Source: a virus. From it: DNA of 21,102 nt. The stretch lies in the IMG/VR virus record IMGVR_UViG_3300010148_000158, positions 1 through 21,102 of that record, one strand, 5' to 3'. Numbering within the stretch: position 1 is the first letter of the stretch; each line of letters starts with the position of its first letter. The notes below the pieces were generated by a model. That model did no database searches and was not told where the DNA came from. It saw only the letters and a list, made by a program, of their open reading frames with translations. The position numbers and the translations under genes are program-made. This document shows positions 2,320 to 16,123 of this stretch, one piece after another.

Positions 2320-2994
2320 ATGAAAGTTAAAATAAACGTACCTGAATCACTTAAAGAAATAACTCTAGATCAATACCAAAGATTTGAAAAGTTAAATACA
2401 GAAGAAAATAAAGAATCTACATTCTTACTACAAAAGATGGTAGAGATATTTTGTAACCTCAACTTAAAGGATGTTGCAAACATAAAATACAAATCAGTAC
2501 AAGAAATAGTAGTACACCTCAACAAGATATTTGATAAAAAGCATAGTTTAACACCTACGTTTACTTTAGGCAATGTAGAGTATGGATTTATACCTGTACT
2601 TGATGATATGTCATTAGGAGAGTTTATAGACCTTGATGAGAACTTAGGCAAGTGGGATAATATGCATAAAGCAATGAGTGTATTATATAGACCAATTAAA
2701 TTTAAGAAAGGTAACAAGTACAATATAGAAGAATACAAAGGTATGAACGACAAACTAAAGTATATGACTTTAGATATTGTATTTGGTTCTATGGTTTTTT
2801 TTTATCATTTAAGCAACGAGTTAACACAAACTATCCTGAATTATTTACAGAAGGAGTTGCCGAACAAACTGACTATTCAGCAGAAGGAAGCTTTGGATCA
2901 AAGTGGGGCTGGTATCAGTCGGTCTATGGTATTGCTAAAGGAGATGCTACCAAGTTTGACACGGTTACCAAACTTAACGTCCACAAATGTTTAA
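2320..2994 (+). CDS. Frame-0 product: probable tail assembly chaperone, short form
   Basis: A 224-residue protein read without frameshifting. Residues 1-160 are shared with the long form: a beta-start KINVPESLKEITLDQYQRF, mainly helical segments, and VEYGFIPVLDDMSLGEF near 85-105. After the T run the frame-0 tail reads FYHLSNELTQTILNYLQKEL and then a Gly/Ser-containing helix, a coherent helical end. The last 60 codons use GC-rich codons (CTG, CCG, CGG, GGG) that are rare elsewhere in this window. That would be expected if the other frame also constrains the DNA. The role as chaperone is inferred from the frameshift architecture and tail-gene context; no enzymatic motif is present. Confidence 0.6.
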   Translation: MKVKINVPESLKEITLDQYQRFEKLNTEENKESTFLLQKMVEIFCNLNLKDVANIKYKSVQEIVVHLNKIFDKKHSLTPTFTLGNVEYGFIPVLDDMSLGEFIDLDENLGKWDNMHKAMSVLYRPIKFKKGNKYNIEEYKGMNDKLKYMTLDIVFGSMVFFYHLSNELTQTILNYLQKELPNKLTIQQKEALDQSGAGISRSMVLLKEMLPSLTRLPNLTSTNV

Positions 2995-3056
2995 TGTATC
3001 TAGCATTTGAAAAAGATAAAGTAGAATTAGAAAAGAAGTTAATTAAAAAACGATGA
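2320..3056 (+). CDS. Frameshift product: probable tail assembly chaperone, long form
   Basis: Translation from ATG 2320 with a -1 shift at the T run 2795-2803 (frame 0 through 2802, then re-reading from 2802) gives about 245 residues and ends at TGA 3054-3056, overlapping the next gene's ATG (3053) as ATGA. The -1 segment contains FGSKWGWYQSVYGIAKGD and LNVHKCLMYLAFEKDK, which look strongly protein-like and recall a segment of Bacteroidetes phage proteins. The -1 frame is open from 2715 but has no ATG until near its end, so frameshifting is its likely route of expression. Two products, one by frameshift, in front of tail genes is the G/GT scheme of tail assembly chaperones. The alternative is a sequencing undercall of ten Ts as nine. 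Confidence 0.65.
2795..2803 (+). promoter_or_regulatory. Slippery T9 run, candidate programmed -1 frameshift site
   Basis: Nine consecutive T residues lie in frame as G GTT TTT TTT TAT, giving a T_TTT_TTT heptamer on which both P- and A-site tRNAs can re-pair after a -1 slip. Both frames stay open far downstream (frame 0 to 2994, -1 frame to 3056). No clear stimulatory hairpin was found after it by eye. Confidence 0.65.
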
Positions 3057-3511
3057 AAGGTTTTTACAACGTAACAAAGGAATTAAAAACAGCACTTGCA
3101 GCGGAACCATTTGTTAATACAGTTACATTTGGAAGTTTAGATGATGTAGATTTAAACAAGCAAACTATATTTCCATTATCACACATTATAGTAAACAACA
3201 CAACATTAGGAACTAAAACACTAACATTTAACATTTCTATTCTTGCAATGGACATTGTAGATATAAGCAAAGAAGCAACTGCTGATATATTTGTAGGAAA
3301 CGATAACGAACAAGATGTACTTAATACACAATTAGGATTACTAACAAGAATAATAAACATCTTACAACGTGGTGATTTATATACTGAACTTTACCAAGTA
3401 CAGGGTGATGTAAGTTGTGAACCATTTGTAGATAGGTTTGAAAACAAGTTAGCAGGATGGACTGCAACATTTGATGTAGTAGTACAAAATGATATGACAA
3501 TATGCAGTTAG
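3053..3511 (+). CDS. Putative tail-completion or tail-terminator protein
   Basis: A 152-residue alpha/beta protein with several amphipathic strands (HIIVNNTTLGTKTLTFNISI, then GWTATFDVVVQNDMTIC at the end) and a helix with TRIINILQRGDL. I recall similar proteins in tail regions of flavobacterial phages, next to HK97 gp10-like genes. Its start overlaps the stop of the frameshifted ORF (ATGA at 3053-3056), and its own end overlaps the next gene by ten bases, so it is embedded in the tail operon. The position beside a gp10-like gene suggests a tail terminator or neck role; this is inference from context and size. Confidence 0.5.
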   Translation: MKGFYNVTKELKTALAAEPFVNTVTFGSLDDVDLNKQTIFPLSHIIVNNTTLGTKTLTFNISILAMDIVDISKEATADIFVGNDNEQDVLNTQLGLLTRIINILQRGDLYTELYQVQGDVSCEPFVDRFENKLAGWTATFDVVVQNDMTICS

Positions 3512-4014
3512 AAAACTTAAATAAAGAACTAAATAAGTTTGGTAAGTTTGTAGTACAGCAAGCAAGAACAAGGTTATCTAAAAACAAATCAAAAAAAGGT
3601 AAGGGAACAACCTCATCAGATGGTCAACTATATAAAAGCCTTGCTTATTTTTTAGATAATAAAAAAAATACTTTGTCTTTTGAAATGGAAGACTACGGTA
3701 TGTTTCAGGATCGTGGTGTAAGTGGAACAGAAAAGAAATACAATACACCTTTTTCATATACAAACAAAATGCCCCCTATTAAACCATTAGCACAATGGGC
3801 AAAAAGTAAAAACATAAGATTAAGAGATAAAGAAGGTAAGTTTAAAAAAGGTAGTTATAATACAATAGGGTTTTTAATAGCAAGAAGTATATATAGAAAA
3901 GGATTAAAACCAAGTTTGTTTTTTACAAAACCATTTGAACAAGCGTTTAAAAAACTACCTGATGATTTGGCATTTGCTTTTGGTGAAGATGTAAATAATT
4001 TATTTAGAAACTAA
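3502..4014 (+). CDS. HK97 gp10-like head-tail joining / tail completion protein
   Basis: A 170-residue basic protein. The layout matches the HK97 gp10-like family: an N-terminal helix (LNKFGKFVVQQARTRL), a Lys/Ser-rich loop (LSKNKSKKGKGTTSSDGQL), a strand pair LSFEMEDYGMFQDRGVSGT equivalent to the family's Y-x-x-F-x-(E/D)-x-G-T signature, and a late KPSLFFTKPFEQAFKKL segment. Family members complete the head-tail joint. The start at 3502 overlaps the previous gene, and the stop overlaps the next ATG (TAATG at 4012-4016). Confidence 0.7.
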   Translation: MQLENLNKELNKFGKFVVQQARTRLSKNKSKKGKGTTSSDGQLYKSLAYFLDNKKNTLSFEMEDYGMFQDRGVSGTEKKYNTPFSYTNKMPPIKPLAQWAKSKNIRLRDKEGKFKKGSYNTIGFLIARSIYRKGLKPSLFFTKPFEQAFKKLPDDLAFAFGEDVNNLFRN

Positions 4015-10294: not shown

Positions 10295-10435
10295 ATGATA
10301 CAGAATATATTAGATTTATTAGAATTTGCAAGAAGCGAGAAATGGAACGGACAATATATAGATATAGCTATGGGTAAAAATAAATACCCTGAATCAATAA
10401 GGGAAGCATACAAACAATTTAAGGAGCAGTTATGA
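10295..10435 (+). CDS. Small conserved-looking ORF before the tape measure gene, 46 residues
   Basis: ATG at 10295, one base after the TAA of the 1277-residue gene, to TGA 10433-10435, which overlaps the tape measure ATG (10432) as ATGA. The product is a short amphipathic helical protein (NILDLLEFARSEKWNGQYID, then KYPESIREAYKQFKEQL). Tight coupling on both sides and a protein-like composition argue that it is translated. The position suggests a tail assembly cofactor, but no family is recognised. Confidence 0.6.
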   Translation: MIQNILDLLEFARSEKWNGQYIDIAMGKNKYPESIREAYKQFKEQL

Positions 10436-12015
10436 GTTTAAAAAAAATTATAGAAGTAGAAGCTAAAGTAGATGATGCTAAAAAAGGTTTAGATAGTGTA
10501 AACAAAAGTGTACAACGTATAGATAAAAACCTTGAAGATGTTAAAGATACAACAGGTGGGGTTGCCAAAGGTGTAAAAGGTATTGGTACTGCTCTTAAAG
10601 CTGCTGGTATTGGTTTAGCTATTGCAGCATTTTCTAAACTTGCAGAAGTATTTAATGAAAACCAAAAAGTAACAGATGCTTTTAGTACTGCCTTTGAAGC
10701 ATTGAGTTTAGCCTTTAATGACTTTTTTAAATTTCTTAATGCAAACGTTGGTACTGTTATGGAATACTTTAAAGGTATTTTTGATGATCCTGTACAATCA
10801 ATTAAAAATTTTGGTTCATCTATTAAACAAGGTATTATAGATAGATTAAAACAAGGTTTAGAAGCATTAGGTTTATTTGGTAAAGCAGCTATTAAGTTTT
10901 TTGCAGGTGATTTTGCAGGAGCAGCACTTACTGCTAAACAAGCATCAAAAGAATTATTTGATATAGTAACAGGAGAAGATGGTGGGTTTGAAAAAATAAC
11001 TGAATCTGTAAAAACAGCAGTAAATGGAATAACTGAATATGCTAAATCAACTGTACAAGCTGCAAGAGCAACAGTTGACCTAAACAAACAAGCAGAAGTA
11101 GCTGCTGTTATCAATCAAGGGTTAATAGAAAAGTACGATAGACAAGCAGAGCAACAAAGACAGCTACGAGATGATGAAACAAAAACAATAGAAGAACGTA
11201 TAGCTGCAAACAATAGGTTAGGAGAAATACTAGATGAGCAAAGTGAAAAAATGCTTGAAAATGTTGATTTACAAATTAAAGCAGCACAATTAGAATTTAA
11301 TAAAAACCAAAACCAAGAAAACTATATAGCATTATTAGAAGCACAAAATGAACGTGAAGCTGTACTTGCACAAATAGAAGGTTTTAGATCAGAACAATTA
11401 ATAAACAGAATATCTTTACAAAGAGAAGCAGGTGAGTTAGCAATAGAGGATGCAGAAAAACTAATTGAATTAGAAGAAAAAAGAAAAGAAGCTATATATG
11501 GTGCTATGGATGCTGTAGCTGAAGCAGCAGGTGAAGAAAGTAAAATAGCAAAAGCATTGTTTCTTTTAAAAACAGGTTTTATAATTAACGAACAAATACT
11601 TGAAGCACAAGCAACATTACAAAGTATTATAAATTCAGCAGCAGAATCAGGGGTAGATGGAGCAAAAGGGTTTATGAAAGCAGCAGCAGCAGCACCTCCT
11701 CCTGCAAACGTGCCTTTAATAGCAATATTTGCAACACAAGCAGCAGGTATAGCAATGAGTATTAAGAGTGCAGTAAGTGCTGCTAAATCTATGGTAGGAA
11801 GTAAAGGTGGCGGAGCAGGTATGAGTGGTGGTCGTGGAGTATCTGCACCAGCACCTCCATCATTTAACGTAGTAGGAGCAGCACCTGAAAACCAATTAGC
11901 ACAAACAATAGGCGATCAACAAGATAAACCTATAAAAGCATTTGTAGTAAGTGGTGATGTAAGCACAGCACAATCACTAGACCGTAATATAGTAGAAGGT
12001 GCTTCAATAGGATAA
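10432..12015 (+). CDS. Tape measure protein
   Basis: 527 residues, helical and Ala/Lys/Glu-rich. The N-terminus reads as a typical tape measure start (VEAKVDDAKKGLDSVNKSVQ, then IDKNLEDVKDTTGGVAKGVK). It is followed by a hydrophobic Gly/Ala helix at about 48-68, long coiled-coil segments between about 220 and 370 (EAQNEREAVLAQIEGFR), and a second hydrophobic Ala/Pro/Ile segment near 410-450 with a Gly-rich linker after it. By the usual 0.15 nm per residue rule it would set a tail of about 80 nm. It lies downstream, not upstream, of the tail-tip genes, which is unusual. A conserved hydrophobic pair is consistent with membrane interaction during DNA ejection. Confidence 0.8.
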   Translation: MSLKKIIEVEAKVDDAKKGLDSVNKSVQRIDKNLEDVKDTTGGVAKGVKGIGTALKAAGIGLAIAAFSKLAEVFNENQKVTDAFSTAFEALSLAFNDFFKFLNANVGTVMEYFKGIFDDPVQSIKNFGSSIKQGIIDRLKQGLEALGLFGKAAIKFFAGDFAGAALTAKQASKELFDIVTGEDGGFEKITESVKTAVNGITEYAKSTVQAARATVDLNKQAEVAAVINQGLIEKYDRQAEQQRQLRDDETKTIEERIAANNRLGEILDEQSEKMLENVDLQIKAAQLEFNKNQNQENYIALLEAQNEREAVLAQIEGFRSEQLINRISLQREAGELAIEDAEKLIELEEKRKEAIYGAMDAVAEAAGEESKIAKALFLLKTGFIINEQILEAQATLQSIINSAAESGVDGAKGFMKAAAAAPPPANVPLIAIFATQAAGIAMSIKSAVSAAKSMVGSKGGGAGMSGGRGVSAPAPPSFNVVGAAPENQLAQTIGDQQDKPIKAFVVSGDVSTAQSLDRNIVEGASIG

Positions 12016-12044: not shown

Positions 12045-13049
12045 ATGGACATAGTAGAACTTTTTATAGATGAAAATGATGAGGTTTCTGGAATTGAAGC
12101 AATATCAGTAGTAGAAAACCCAGCAATAGAAGAAAACTTTATAGCACTAAAAAACCAAGAGTTTAAACTTGCAGAAGTAGACAAAGAAAAGCGTATACTT
12201 ATGGGTGCTGCTTTGATACCTAACAAACCTATCTACCGTACAAATGGTGAGCAGGAATATTATATATACTTTAGTCAAGCAACTGTACGTAAAGCAAGTG
12301 AATTATTCTTTATAAAAGGTAACCAAAACAACTCAACATTAGAACATCAATTAGAACTTAAAGGGTTAACTGCTGTAGAAAGTTGGATAGTAGAAAGTGA
12401 ACAAGATAAAAGCCGTATGTACGATTTAAACGTGCCTATTGGTACTTGGATGGTATCTATGAAAGTAAATAACGATGATGTTTGGAAAAAAGTAAAAGCA
12501 GGAGAAGTAAAAGGGTTTAGTATTGAAGGTTACTTTGCAGATAAGTTAGAAAGACCAAACGAACCTGTAAAAGATAAGATGTCCGAGCAAGAAGAAATGG
12601 CTAACGAATTAGTTGAAGAACTAAAGCACATACTAAAAGAAGAAAATTTAGAATCTTATTCAGATTATCCAAGTGGTGTTAAAAACAATGCTAAAAAAGG
12701 TATTGAACTAAACGAAAAAGTAAACAACAAGTGTGCAACACAAGTAGGAAAAGTAAGGGCACAACAATTAGCACAAGGCAAACCAATAACTACAGAAACT
12801 ATTAAAAGGATGTTTAGTTATTTAAGCAGAGCACAAGAAGATTATGATGAAAATGATAGTAAAGCGTGTGGTACTATATCTTACTTATTGTGGGGTGGAA
12901 AAGCAGGTTTACGTTGGGCGGGTGCTAAACTTAAAGAACTTGATTTAATAGAAGAAGATTTAAAAAAGCCTTGTTACAATGGTTATGAAATGATAGGTTT
13001 CAAAATTAAAAACGGTAGAAAAGTACCTAATTGCGTACCAATAAAATAA
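12045..13049 (+). CDS. XkdF-like prohead protease with an extra C-terminal domain
   Basis: 334 residues. The N-terminal two-thirds match the XkdF-type phage serine protease family: ALIPNKPIYR (56-65), H101 in TLEHQ, WIVESEQDK (114-122), PIGTWMVSMK (131-140), and GFSIEGYF (157-164) with the likely nucleophile S159. After an acidic linker (about 178-200) comes a distinct domain (about 205-300) with YPSGVKNNAKKGIELNEK, ATQVGKVRAQQLAQGKPI and GTISYLLWGGKAGLRWA, which I recall from other Bacteroidetes phage head proteins. The protease would process capsid and scaffold proteins; neighbours downstream are a scaffold-like gene and the capsid gene. The role of the second domain is not known to me. Confidence 0.75.
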   Translation: MDIVELFIDENDEVSGIEAISVVENPAIEENFIALKNQEFKLAEVDKEKRILMGAALIPNKPIYRTNGEQEYYIYFSQATVRKASELFFIKGNQNNSTLEHQLELKGLTAVESWIVESEQDKSRMYDLNVPIGTWMVSMKVNNDDVWKKVKAGEVKGFSIEGYFADKLERPNEPVKDKMSEQEEMANELVEELKHILKEENLESYSDYPSGVKNNAKKGIELNEKVNNKCATQVGKVRAQQLAQGKPITTETIKRMFSYLSRAQEDYDENDSKACGTISYLLWGGKAGLRWAGAKLKELDLIEEDLKKPCYNGYEMIGFKIKNGRKVPNCVPIK

Positions 13050-13050
13050 T

Positions 13051-13413
13051 ATGAGTAGAATACCAAGTCCACAATCAGGTCGTAGAGGTTGCTTATGTAA
13101 AGATGATACATATTCTATAGAATGTTGCAATGGTAGCTTTCAAGCTCAAGGCGTAGGAAATGTAACAGGTACAATAGAAACACCAGGTGCAGGAGAATAT
13201 GGTTATAGGGTAGAAAAATGTGGACATAGCCAAAAAAAACACTTTTATGGTTCTACACAATTAGTAGTAGGCAATGTATATTATATAAATGCAGATCACG
13301 ATAACCATGATGGTTGTTATACTGTATTAAGCCAAGATCAAAACGCACACGGACATCATTTTAGTGCTGTAACATTATATAACGATTGTACAGCGTGTCA
13401 AGCAGCAAACTAA
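13051..13413 (+). CDS. Cys/His-rich protein, possible metal-binding virion protein
   Basis: 120 residues with eight Cys (14, 16, 25, 26, 57, 89, 113, 116) and seven His (59, 64, 83, 86, 100, 102, 103). The opening GRRGCLCKDDTYSIECCNGS is a signature I recall from a small protein encoded near head genes of flavobacterial phages. The middle (LVVGNVYYINADHDNHDGCY) looks like beta strands. The spacing of CxC, CC and CxxC suggests zinc or iron-sulfur binding, or disulfides. It starts one base after the protease stop, so it is in the same unit. Function unknown. Confidence 0.6.
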   Translation: MSRIPSPQSGRRGCLCKDDTYSIECCNGSFQAQGVGNVTGTIETPGAGEYGYRVEKCGHSQKKHFYGSTQLVVGNVYYINADHDNHDGCYTVLSQDQNAHGHHFSAVTLYNDCTACQAAN

Positions 13414-13451: not shown

Positions 13452-14051
13452 ATGAAAGCAACAGATATGTTAAACAAAGTAAAAGAGGTACTTGGGGTAG
13501 AGTTATCTGAAGTACCTTTAGAAGTAAAGTTGGCACAAGCCGAACTTGAGAACGGTACAATTATAGAAAGCGAAAATTTTGAAGCTGGAGCAGAAGTGTT
13601 TATTGTTACCGAAGATGAAAAAGTAGCAATGCCTGTAGGCGAATACAAACTTGTAGATGGTGAATCATTAATTGTTGAAGAAGAAGGTATTATTGCTTCT
13701 ATCGGTGCAGTTGAAGAAGCACCAGAAGAAGAAGTAGAAGCTGAAAAAAAAGAAGAAATGGGTTATGCTACTAAACAAGAACTTCAAGAGGTTAAAGAAA
13801 TGGTTGAAGAAATTAAATCAATGCTTGAACCTAAAGAAGAAATGGCTGAAGAACCTGTAGAAGAAAATTCTGTTAAATCAGAAGAAACAACTACAAAAAC
13901 TGTATACGCTGAAAAAGAAGATTTAAGCGAAGTACAAAAGGTTACTCATAACCCTGAAAAAGAAAACAAACCTAACTTAAACTTGTATTCACAAAAAAGA
14001 ACTAATACAACTTTAGATAGAGTGTTAAATAAAATATCAAACATAAAATAA
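13452..14051 (+). CDS. Scaffold-like head assembly protein
   Basis: 199 residues. The N-terminal part (1-90) is beta-rich, with AQAELENGTIIESENFEAGA, VFIVTEDEKVAMPVGEYKL and IVEEEGIIASIG; I recall this from proteins encoded just before flavobacterial phage capsid genes. The second half is strongly acidic and helical (EEAPEEEVEAEKKEEM, then KQELQEVKEMVEEIKSML), and the end is basic (SQKRTNTTLDRVLNKI). An acidic coiled coil with a basic tail next to the protease and capsid genes fits an internal scaffold that is later degraded. There are no catalytic motifs. Confidence 0.65.
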   Translation: MKATDMLNKVKEVLGVELSEVPLEVKLAQAELENGTIIESENFEAGAEVFIVTEDEKVAMPVGEYKLVDGESLIVEEEGIIASIGAVEEAPEEEVEAEKKEEMGYATKQELQEVKEMVEEIKSMLEPKEEMAEEPVEENSVKSEETTTKTVYAEKEDLSEVQKVTHNPEKENKPNLNLYSQKRTNTTLDRVLNKISNIK

Positions 14052-16091: not shown

Positions 16092-16123
16092 AAGGGGTAG
16101 CCTAACGGTTACCCTTTTTTTTT
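16092..16123 (+). terminator. Intrinsic terminator after the tail tube gene
   Basis: Arm AAGGGGTAGCC (16092-16102), loop TAAC (16103-16106), arm GGTTACCCTTT (16107-16117), with the T-tract continuing to 16123. The core is eight pairs with one G-T, plus three weaker closing pairs. Confidence 0.85.

Follow-up and report, generated by a model that had tools for sequence, protein, structure and literature searches.

Layout of the gene at 2320

The DNA analysed here is from a marine phage and comprises a whole IMG/VR virus record, 21,102 bases long and called the window, whose genes include a terminase, a protease, a capsid-like gene and a portal. The gene under study begins at position 2320, and its frame 0 extends from 2320 to 2994 and encodes 224 aa. 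Within it lies a run of nine Ts (T9) at 2795-2803, read in frame 0 as ATG GTT TTT TTT TAT, which holds the heptamer T_TTT_TTT in phase with that frame at 2796-2802. Both the run and the phase of the heptamer had been proposed in a preliminary description of this DNA, together with about 63 open codons of frame 0 past the site, and our count gives 63 sense codons beyond the heptamer. From the run, the -1 frame is open as far as a TGA at 3054-3056, and this stop shares an ATGA with the start codon of the next gene at 3053, as had also been described. The features of the locus are as follows.

2320..2802, + strand: shared N-terminal part, a putative G-like domain; 161 codons of frame 0; matches phrog_32199 (unknown function)
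2795..2803, + strand: T9 run, the probable frame-transition site, with T_TTT_TTT at 2796-2802; T9 or T10 in all checked loci
2803..2994, + strand: frame-0 C-terminal tail, 63 codons and a stop, of the predicted 224-aa product; the same DNA also codes in the -1 frame
2802..3056, + strand: putative T-like domain in the -1 frame with its TGA stop; motifs FLSFKQR...FGSKWGWY...LIKKR
2320..2802 joined to the -1 domain at 2802..3056, + strand: predicted 245-aa fusion
3053..3511, + strand: next gene, 152 aa; matches phrog_30964 (unknown function); start codon and -1 stop share the ATGA

GC contents counted by hand for the preliminary description (about 45%, 23% and 27%) were reproduced on recomputation as 44.5% at 2881-2990, 23.3% at 3001-3060 and 26.7% at 2701-2820. 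Taken as a whole the overlap (2804-2994) has a GC content of 39.8%, against 28.8% for 2320-2794. On the + strand of the window, the run at 2795 is the sole T9 within a predicted gene; two more T9 runs, at 84-92 and 16115-16123, are both located outside predicted genes.

Conservation of the T run in related phages

Relatives were gathered through four overlapping searches, which returned 550, 550, 575 and 589 confirmed relatives and from each of which 80 were kept. The run was T9 in 303 of 318 locus checks and T10 in the other 15, and in none was it shorter. Contigs recur between the searches, and the checks correspond to 239 distinct sequences, counted as distinct 270-nt sequences over the four search sets.

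The frame-0 protein was searched against viral contigs, and the best 80 of 550 relatives all carried T9. This set was picked by frame-0 similarity and thus favours frame 0; in the same 80 loci the -1 frame reached its stop in 76, while in the other 4 it was still open where the contig ended. The searches were repeated with the -1 domain, a choice that favours neither the run nor frame 0. Querying with the -1 domain of one relative (L086) gave T9 in 80 of 81 loci (80 kept of 158 relatives, plus L086 itself) and T10 in one, L214. An alignment query of the -1 domain gave 69 T9 and 8 T10 loci (80 kept of 575 relatives, 77 examined, the three left out being contigs already seen), while a third -1 domain search gave 74 and 6, respectively (80 kept of 589 relatives). 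In six of the eight T10 loci from the 575-relative search the run is placed one codon upstream and in phase (CTT TTT TTT TTC or ATT TTT TTT TTG), and the remaining two have TTT as their first slip codon. A search of 395 genomes sampled from the phylum gave a single match, which was the genome of L086 itself, and a search of genome contigs identified one relative among 44 candidate stretches.

Two marine isolates, Nonlabens phages P12024S and P12024L, carry T9 at the same place with a frame-0 identity of 27-29%. Their GenBank annotation presents the homologous gene as two hypothetical ORFs, P12024S_38 and P12024S_39. The P12024S locus (3001-3695 in our numbering of L002) corresponds to JQ823122 23136-23830, and its T9 and -1 domain indicate one frame-transition gene.

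Homopolymers are error-prone and L214 does have T10, both of which would suit a sequencing or assembly error at a true T10, or a decayed gene. However, T9 or T10 occurs in the split arrangement in the 239 distinct sequences, L214 excepted, which come from many contigs, and in two isolate genomes with T9, and purifying selection acts on both frames (see below). We regard such an error or decay as extremely improbable, and sequencing error and pseudogene were both ruled out by the homologues; the nine Ts are taken to be genuine. The L214 locus (2654-3252) has a single frame at the site and an N-domain broken by a stop, and looks damaged or misassembled.

The -1 domain is joined to the upstream frame

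Starts and stops were surveyed in 250 records chosen by the presence of the run and the domain (196 distinct 300-nt sequences). Between the last upstream stop and the run, the -1 frame contained an ATG in 0 of the 250 records. This stretch lacked ATG, GTG and TTG altogether in 228 of the 250, and it was four codons long or less in 22. At the other end, of the 242 records having the -1 stop, 238 show an ATG at that stop or close to it, in 136 of them as ATGA.

Among 30 sequences, conservation of the -1 domain extends from the run, with 8 of 92 columns invariant, and its conserved FLxF(K/R)xR block starts at the run. Seven of the 30 domain members matched phrog_38404, a separate family of unknown function, the window's own domain not being among the seven.

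Because no upstream ATG is present in the -1 frame of any record, the run is the sole route into the -1 domain. The annotation of P12024S_39 as a separate ORF would agree with a domain that forms a gene with a start of its own, the two frames merely overlapping. Yet neither the lack of a -1 start in every record surveyed nor the beginning of the conserved block at the run suits such a gene; we give it almost no credence, and an independent start was ruled out by the survey. The conservation among homologues that the preliminary description called for extends to the run, its phase, both reading frames and the absence of a -1 start.

Selection on both frames of the overlap

The frame-0 tail, measured from the end of NTT TTT TTT, is 52-65 codons long in 243 of the 250 records. 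It is 25 codons in 3 P12024-type records, and the other 4 end at the contig end.

Substitutions were sorted by their effect in the two frames within three clades of 27, 21 and 5 representatives. Frame-0 dN/dS was below 1 in each, with NN/NS of 0.53, 0.33 and 0.47 and SN/SS of 0.30, 0.09 and 0.17. Synonymous change in the fused frame fell by a factor of 1.7 to 3.5, from pS of 0.61, 0.34 and 0.59 upstream of the run to 0.35, 0.10 and 0.28 in the overlap, and four-fold sites showed the same, at 0.44, 0.24 and 0.45 before the run and 0.21, 0.03 and 0.22 in the overlap. The synonymous-site conservation over the overlap that had been suggested as a check is thus borne out. The drop starts around the run, the ten-codon bin just before and including it being already low. 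Past the frame-0 stop the fused-frame pS is 0.44, 0.23 and 0.27, values that rest on few sites and do not make a clear-cut recovery; in the clade of the window, the 0.44 (CI 0.27-0.62) is no clear return to the upstream level.

The openness of frame 0 was assessed by holding the -1 protein fixed and shuffling its codons synonymously. For the window, 0.7% of shuffles left frame 0 as open as it actually is; for 13 other long-tailed relatives the share was 0.08-5.2%, so that P was below 0.05 in 13 of 14 long-tailed sequences and 0.052 in the remaining one.

Frame-0 similarity was also compared with a synonymous null in 120 non-independent pairs drawn from 16 members. Mean frame-0 identity was 0.39, against 0.28 under the null, and similarity exceeded the null in 118 of the 120 pairs (z>1.64 in 83) and fell below it in 2. 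As a synonymous null erases shared ancestry, the matching non-coding frame in the 58 codons that precede the run served as a control, and there the median z was 0.05, with 62 of 120 pairs above the null and z>1.64 in 4. Within the overlap, the 42 pairs whose -1 proteins were less than 50% identical had a median z of 2.0, and 41 of these 42 were above the null. Because the upstream control lies near the null and divergent pairs are still above it, the pairwise signal is specific to the overlap.

By these measures of substitution, openness and similarity, selection acts in both frames on the DNA past the run, in agreement with the earlier proposal that two frames constrain it. Selection in both frames argues that the frame-0 tail is a working part of the gene and not mere read-on. 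Several observations would be compatible with a tail of no function, in which only the -1 fusion matters and frame 0 owes its openness to passive coupling or to an RNA or DNA element that overlaps it. The tail of P12024S and P12024L is just 25 codons, and in P12024S this short tail is not unusually open (P=0.25); the window's own clade shows less frame-0 constraint (SN 0.37 against an upstream S of 0.61); and the model of the tail has low confidence (pLDDT<50 at residues 195-224). The openness of the long-tailed sequences, however, and the excess of frame-0 similarity over both the null and the upstream control speak against it, as does the lack of an RNA structure signal downstream of the run (see below). 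A non-functional tail therefore appears quite unlikely.

Probable slippage, by the ribosome or by RNA polymerase

The site has the features associated with either kind of slippage. A heptamer of the X_XXY_YYZ type, T_TTT_TTT, is present in phase with frame 0, and the A/T run of at least nine bases that serves as a criterion for transcriptional slippage is present as T9 or T10 in all loci checked. The slip codon was always NTT in the loci checked. The last base of the heptamer is T in 57 of 57 representatives, even though a change from T to C at this position is silent in both frames; in the upstream codons TTT makes up 85% of Phe codons and GTT 31% of Val codons. From this pattern the run seems to be conserved beyond coding need, which fits ribosomal -1 slippage and also slippage by RNA polymerase.

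RNA structure downstream of the site gave no average signal relative to shuffles in 22 sequences (mean z 0.19, -0.25 and 0.44 at 50, 80 and 120 nt), the one exception being L161, with z of -2.6 at 80 nt. Structure or a hairpin upstream of the site likewise gave no signal in 18 sequences (mean z 0.21). According to one report, U_UUU_UUU shifts weakly in E. coli relative to A_AAA_AAG, and bacterial RNA polymerase slips efficiently in vivo at 9 As or Ts (PMC5009743).

Polymerase slippage at T9 or T10 would give some mRNAs an extra U and so yield the 245-aa fusion with no ribosomal shift. This would account for a run that is never shorter than nine in any checked locus, while seven Ts suffice for the ribosome, and for the invariant last base of the heptamer, to be seen against the 85% of TTT among upstream Phe codons. 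Nine Ts are moreover described as being used for slippage in T. thermophilus dnaX (PMC5009743), and a structure that would stimulate ribosomal slippage was sought and none was found. However, the flanking Ts are also explained by the protein (V/I/L/F before the run, Y/W/F/L after it, and Leu in the -1 frame), and the upstream hairpin signal was absent. Because the tail-chaperone shifts described in the literature consulted are ribosomal, the ribosome is favoured about two to one. Slippage by the polymerase is thus a possible but less likely origin of the fusion, and we are doubtful of the fuller proposal that the polymerase, not the ribosome, sets the product ratio, with T9/T10 kept over deep divergence and over 50 codons held in two frames.

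With ribosomal slippage as the mechanism, most ribosomes would stay in frame 0 across the run and produce the 224-aa protein, consisting of 161 shared residues and the 63-residue tail. A minority would slip back one base on T_TTT_TTT and produce the 245-aa protein, with the same 161 residues followed by the 84-residue T-like domain, and the frequency of the slip would set the ratio of the two products. Both proteins are presumably made, the fusion probably being the minority product.

The patterns described above make it most likely that this tail-assembly-chaperone-like gene undergoes a programmed -1 frame transition and yields two proteins with different ends. Of the programmed -1 frameshift put forward in the preliminary description, the conserved transition site and the two frames have held, and we infer the ribosome to be the likelier cause. 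We place a probability of roughly 60% on the complete reading, in which a ribosomal -1 slip yields the 224-aa and 245-aa products of a G/GT-like gene and the frame-0 tail is functional.

Probable role and neighbouring genes

The G/GT type is characterized by a common N-terminus and a conserved in-phase -1 transition site, and both were found at the sequence level. The gene at 2320 is probably a member of the G/GT tail-chaperone pairs, as judged from this architecture together with weak family and fold matches. If the pair works like lambda gpG/gpGT, the tape-measure protein would be bound by the shared domain, and recruitment of the tail-tube protein would fall to the -1 domain.

Weak matches to phrog_166 ('tail protein') were obtained with 11 of 33 members, the best at 3e-5, and a second listing gave E of 0.0016-0.0037 in four of ten members. 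No chaperone match was found in Pfam or NCBIfam. The AlphaFold model of the frame-0 protein has a mean pLDDT of 78 and is confident to about residue 170. Its fold matches in BFVD are mostly uncharacterised phage proteins, although they include a 'Tail assembly chaperone protein' (ctCpR1, rank 41, E 0.014, prob 0.99, TM 0.36/0.41) and a Wanderer tail assembly protein (E 0.29). A PDB fold search with the same model gave 60 matches at E<=10 and none at E<=0.001, an absence that is compatible with membership of the family, and VIA-align gave one row, with Z of 2.2. When the PDB was searched by sequence, using the frame-0 profile and the two genes that follow, the single match was at chance level (E 0.2).

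The sole tape-measure candidate of the window, at 10432-12015, is 7 kb downstream and matches the tape-measure family phrog_1272 weakly (E 0.0077); it also matches phrog_21537, a virion structural protein, at 1.5e-20. No clear tape-measure gene adjoins the gene at 2320, and there was no sure major tail protein in the window. The module order between 2320 and 20289 is odd, running from terminase and chaperone-like gene to the tape-measure candidate at 10432, then protease, capsid-like gene and portal. In addition, 12045-13049 and 13452-14051 match the N-terminal and C-terminal parts of phrog_24921, respectively, such that this family (protease plus a downstream part) is split into two genes in the window, with 13051-13413 between them. 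A G/GT-like gene of a Bacteroidota phage is the best explanation for the gene at 2320.

Relation to known systems

This kind of gene is already known from lambda, HK97 and SPP1. As far as the literature searched shows, the family, its T9/T10 site and the selection measured in the two frames are new; a search for literature on this frameshift gene or on long chaperone overlaps, covering the titles and abstract openings of open-licence papers, found none naming it. What has been identified is a well-supported, unannotated and deeply conserved frame-transition gene, which unites phrog_32199 and phrog_38404, two families without an assigned function. Its relatives form a large natural alignment of two mutually constrained frames over some 52-65 codons, useful for the study of overlap evolution, and the gene makes slippage by ribosome or polymerase at T9 testable in Bacteroidota phages.

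When phages were searched with the frame-0 protein, P12024S and P12024L were the only matches. Flavobacterium phage 6H (L319, minus strand, R9VW65) holds a fold relative of the frame-0 protein that ends in TGT TTT TTC TAT, with a possible T-like ORF beginning just past the -1 stop, so the arrangement differs. Its gene at 10352-10927 was dropped as a comparison, the -1 frame stopping at once.

T. thermophilus dnaX has a nine-base T run as its site, as does the gene described here (PMC5009743). For genes with transcriptional slippage a mixed mRNA population is reported in the same source.

In lambda gpG/gpGT and HK97 gp13/gp14, a -1 shift joins a G domain to a T domain, as it would here. The site in those phages is GGGAAAG and lies close to the G stop, and the annotated T start of lambda lies 19 nt before the end of G. 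The -1 frame is open before the G stop for at most 21 codons in lambda and 17 in HK97, in contrast to the 63-codon overlap of the window. The preliminary description was therefore correct that the overlap is longer than that of lambda, although a precedent for the length exists in SPP1.

SPP1 gp17.5/gp17.5* is described as a pair of 173- and 297-aa products with the first 112 residues in common (PMC6316719). A putative -1 shift is placed there at the U-rich heptamer UUUUUUC, resembling the T-rich site reported here, and by the published lengths frame 0 continues for about 61 codons past the shift, nearly the 63 of the window (PMC6316719). The SPP1 site is T6C and not T9/T10, and its -1 part is about 185 codons, compared with 84 here, making the SPP1 fusion far longer than its frame-0 product (PMC6316719). 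The available text of the SPP1 report makes no mention of dual selection (PMC6316719), which in the present family has been measured across the overlap.
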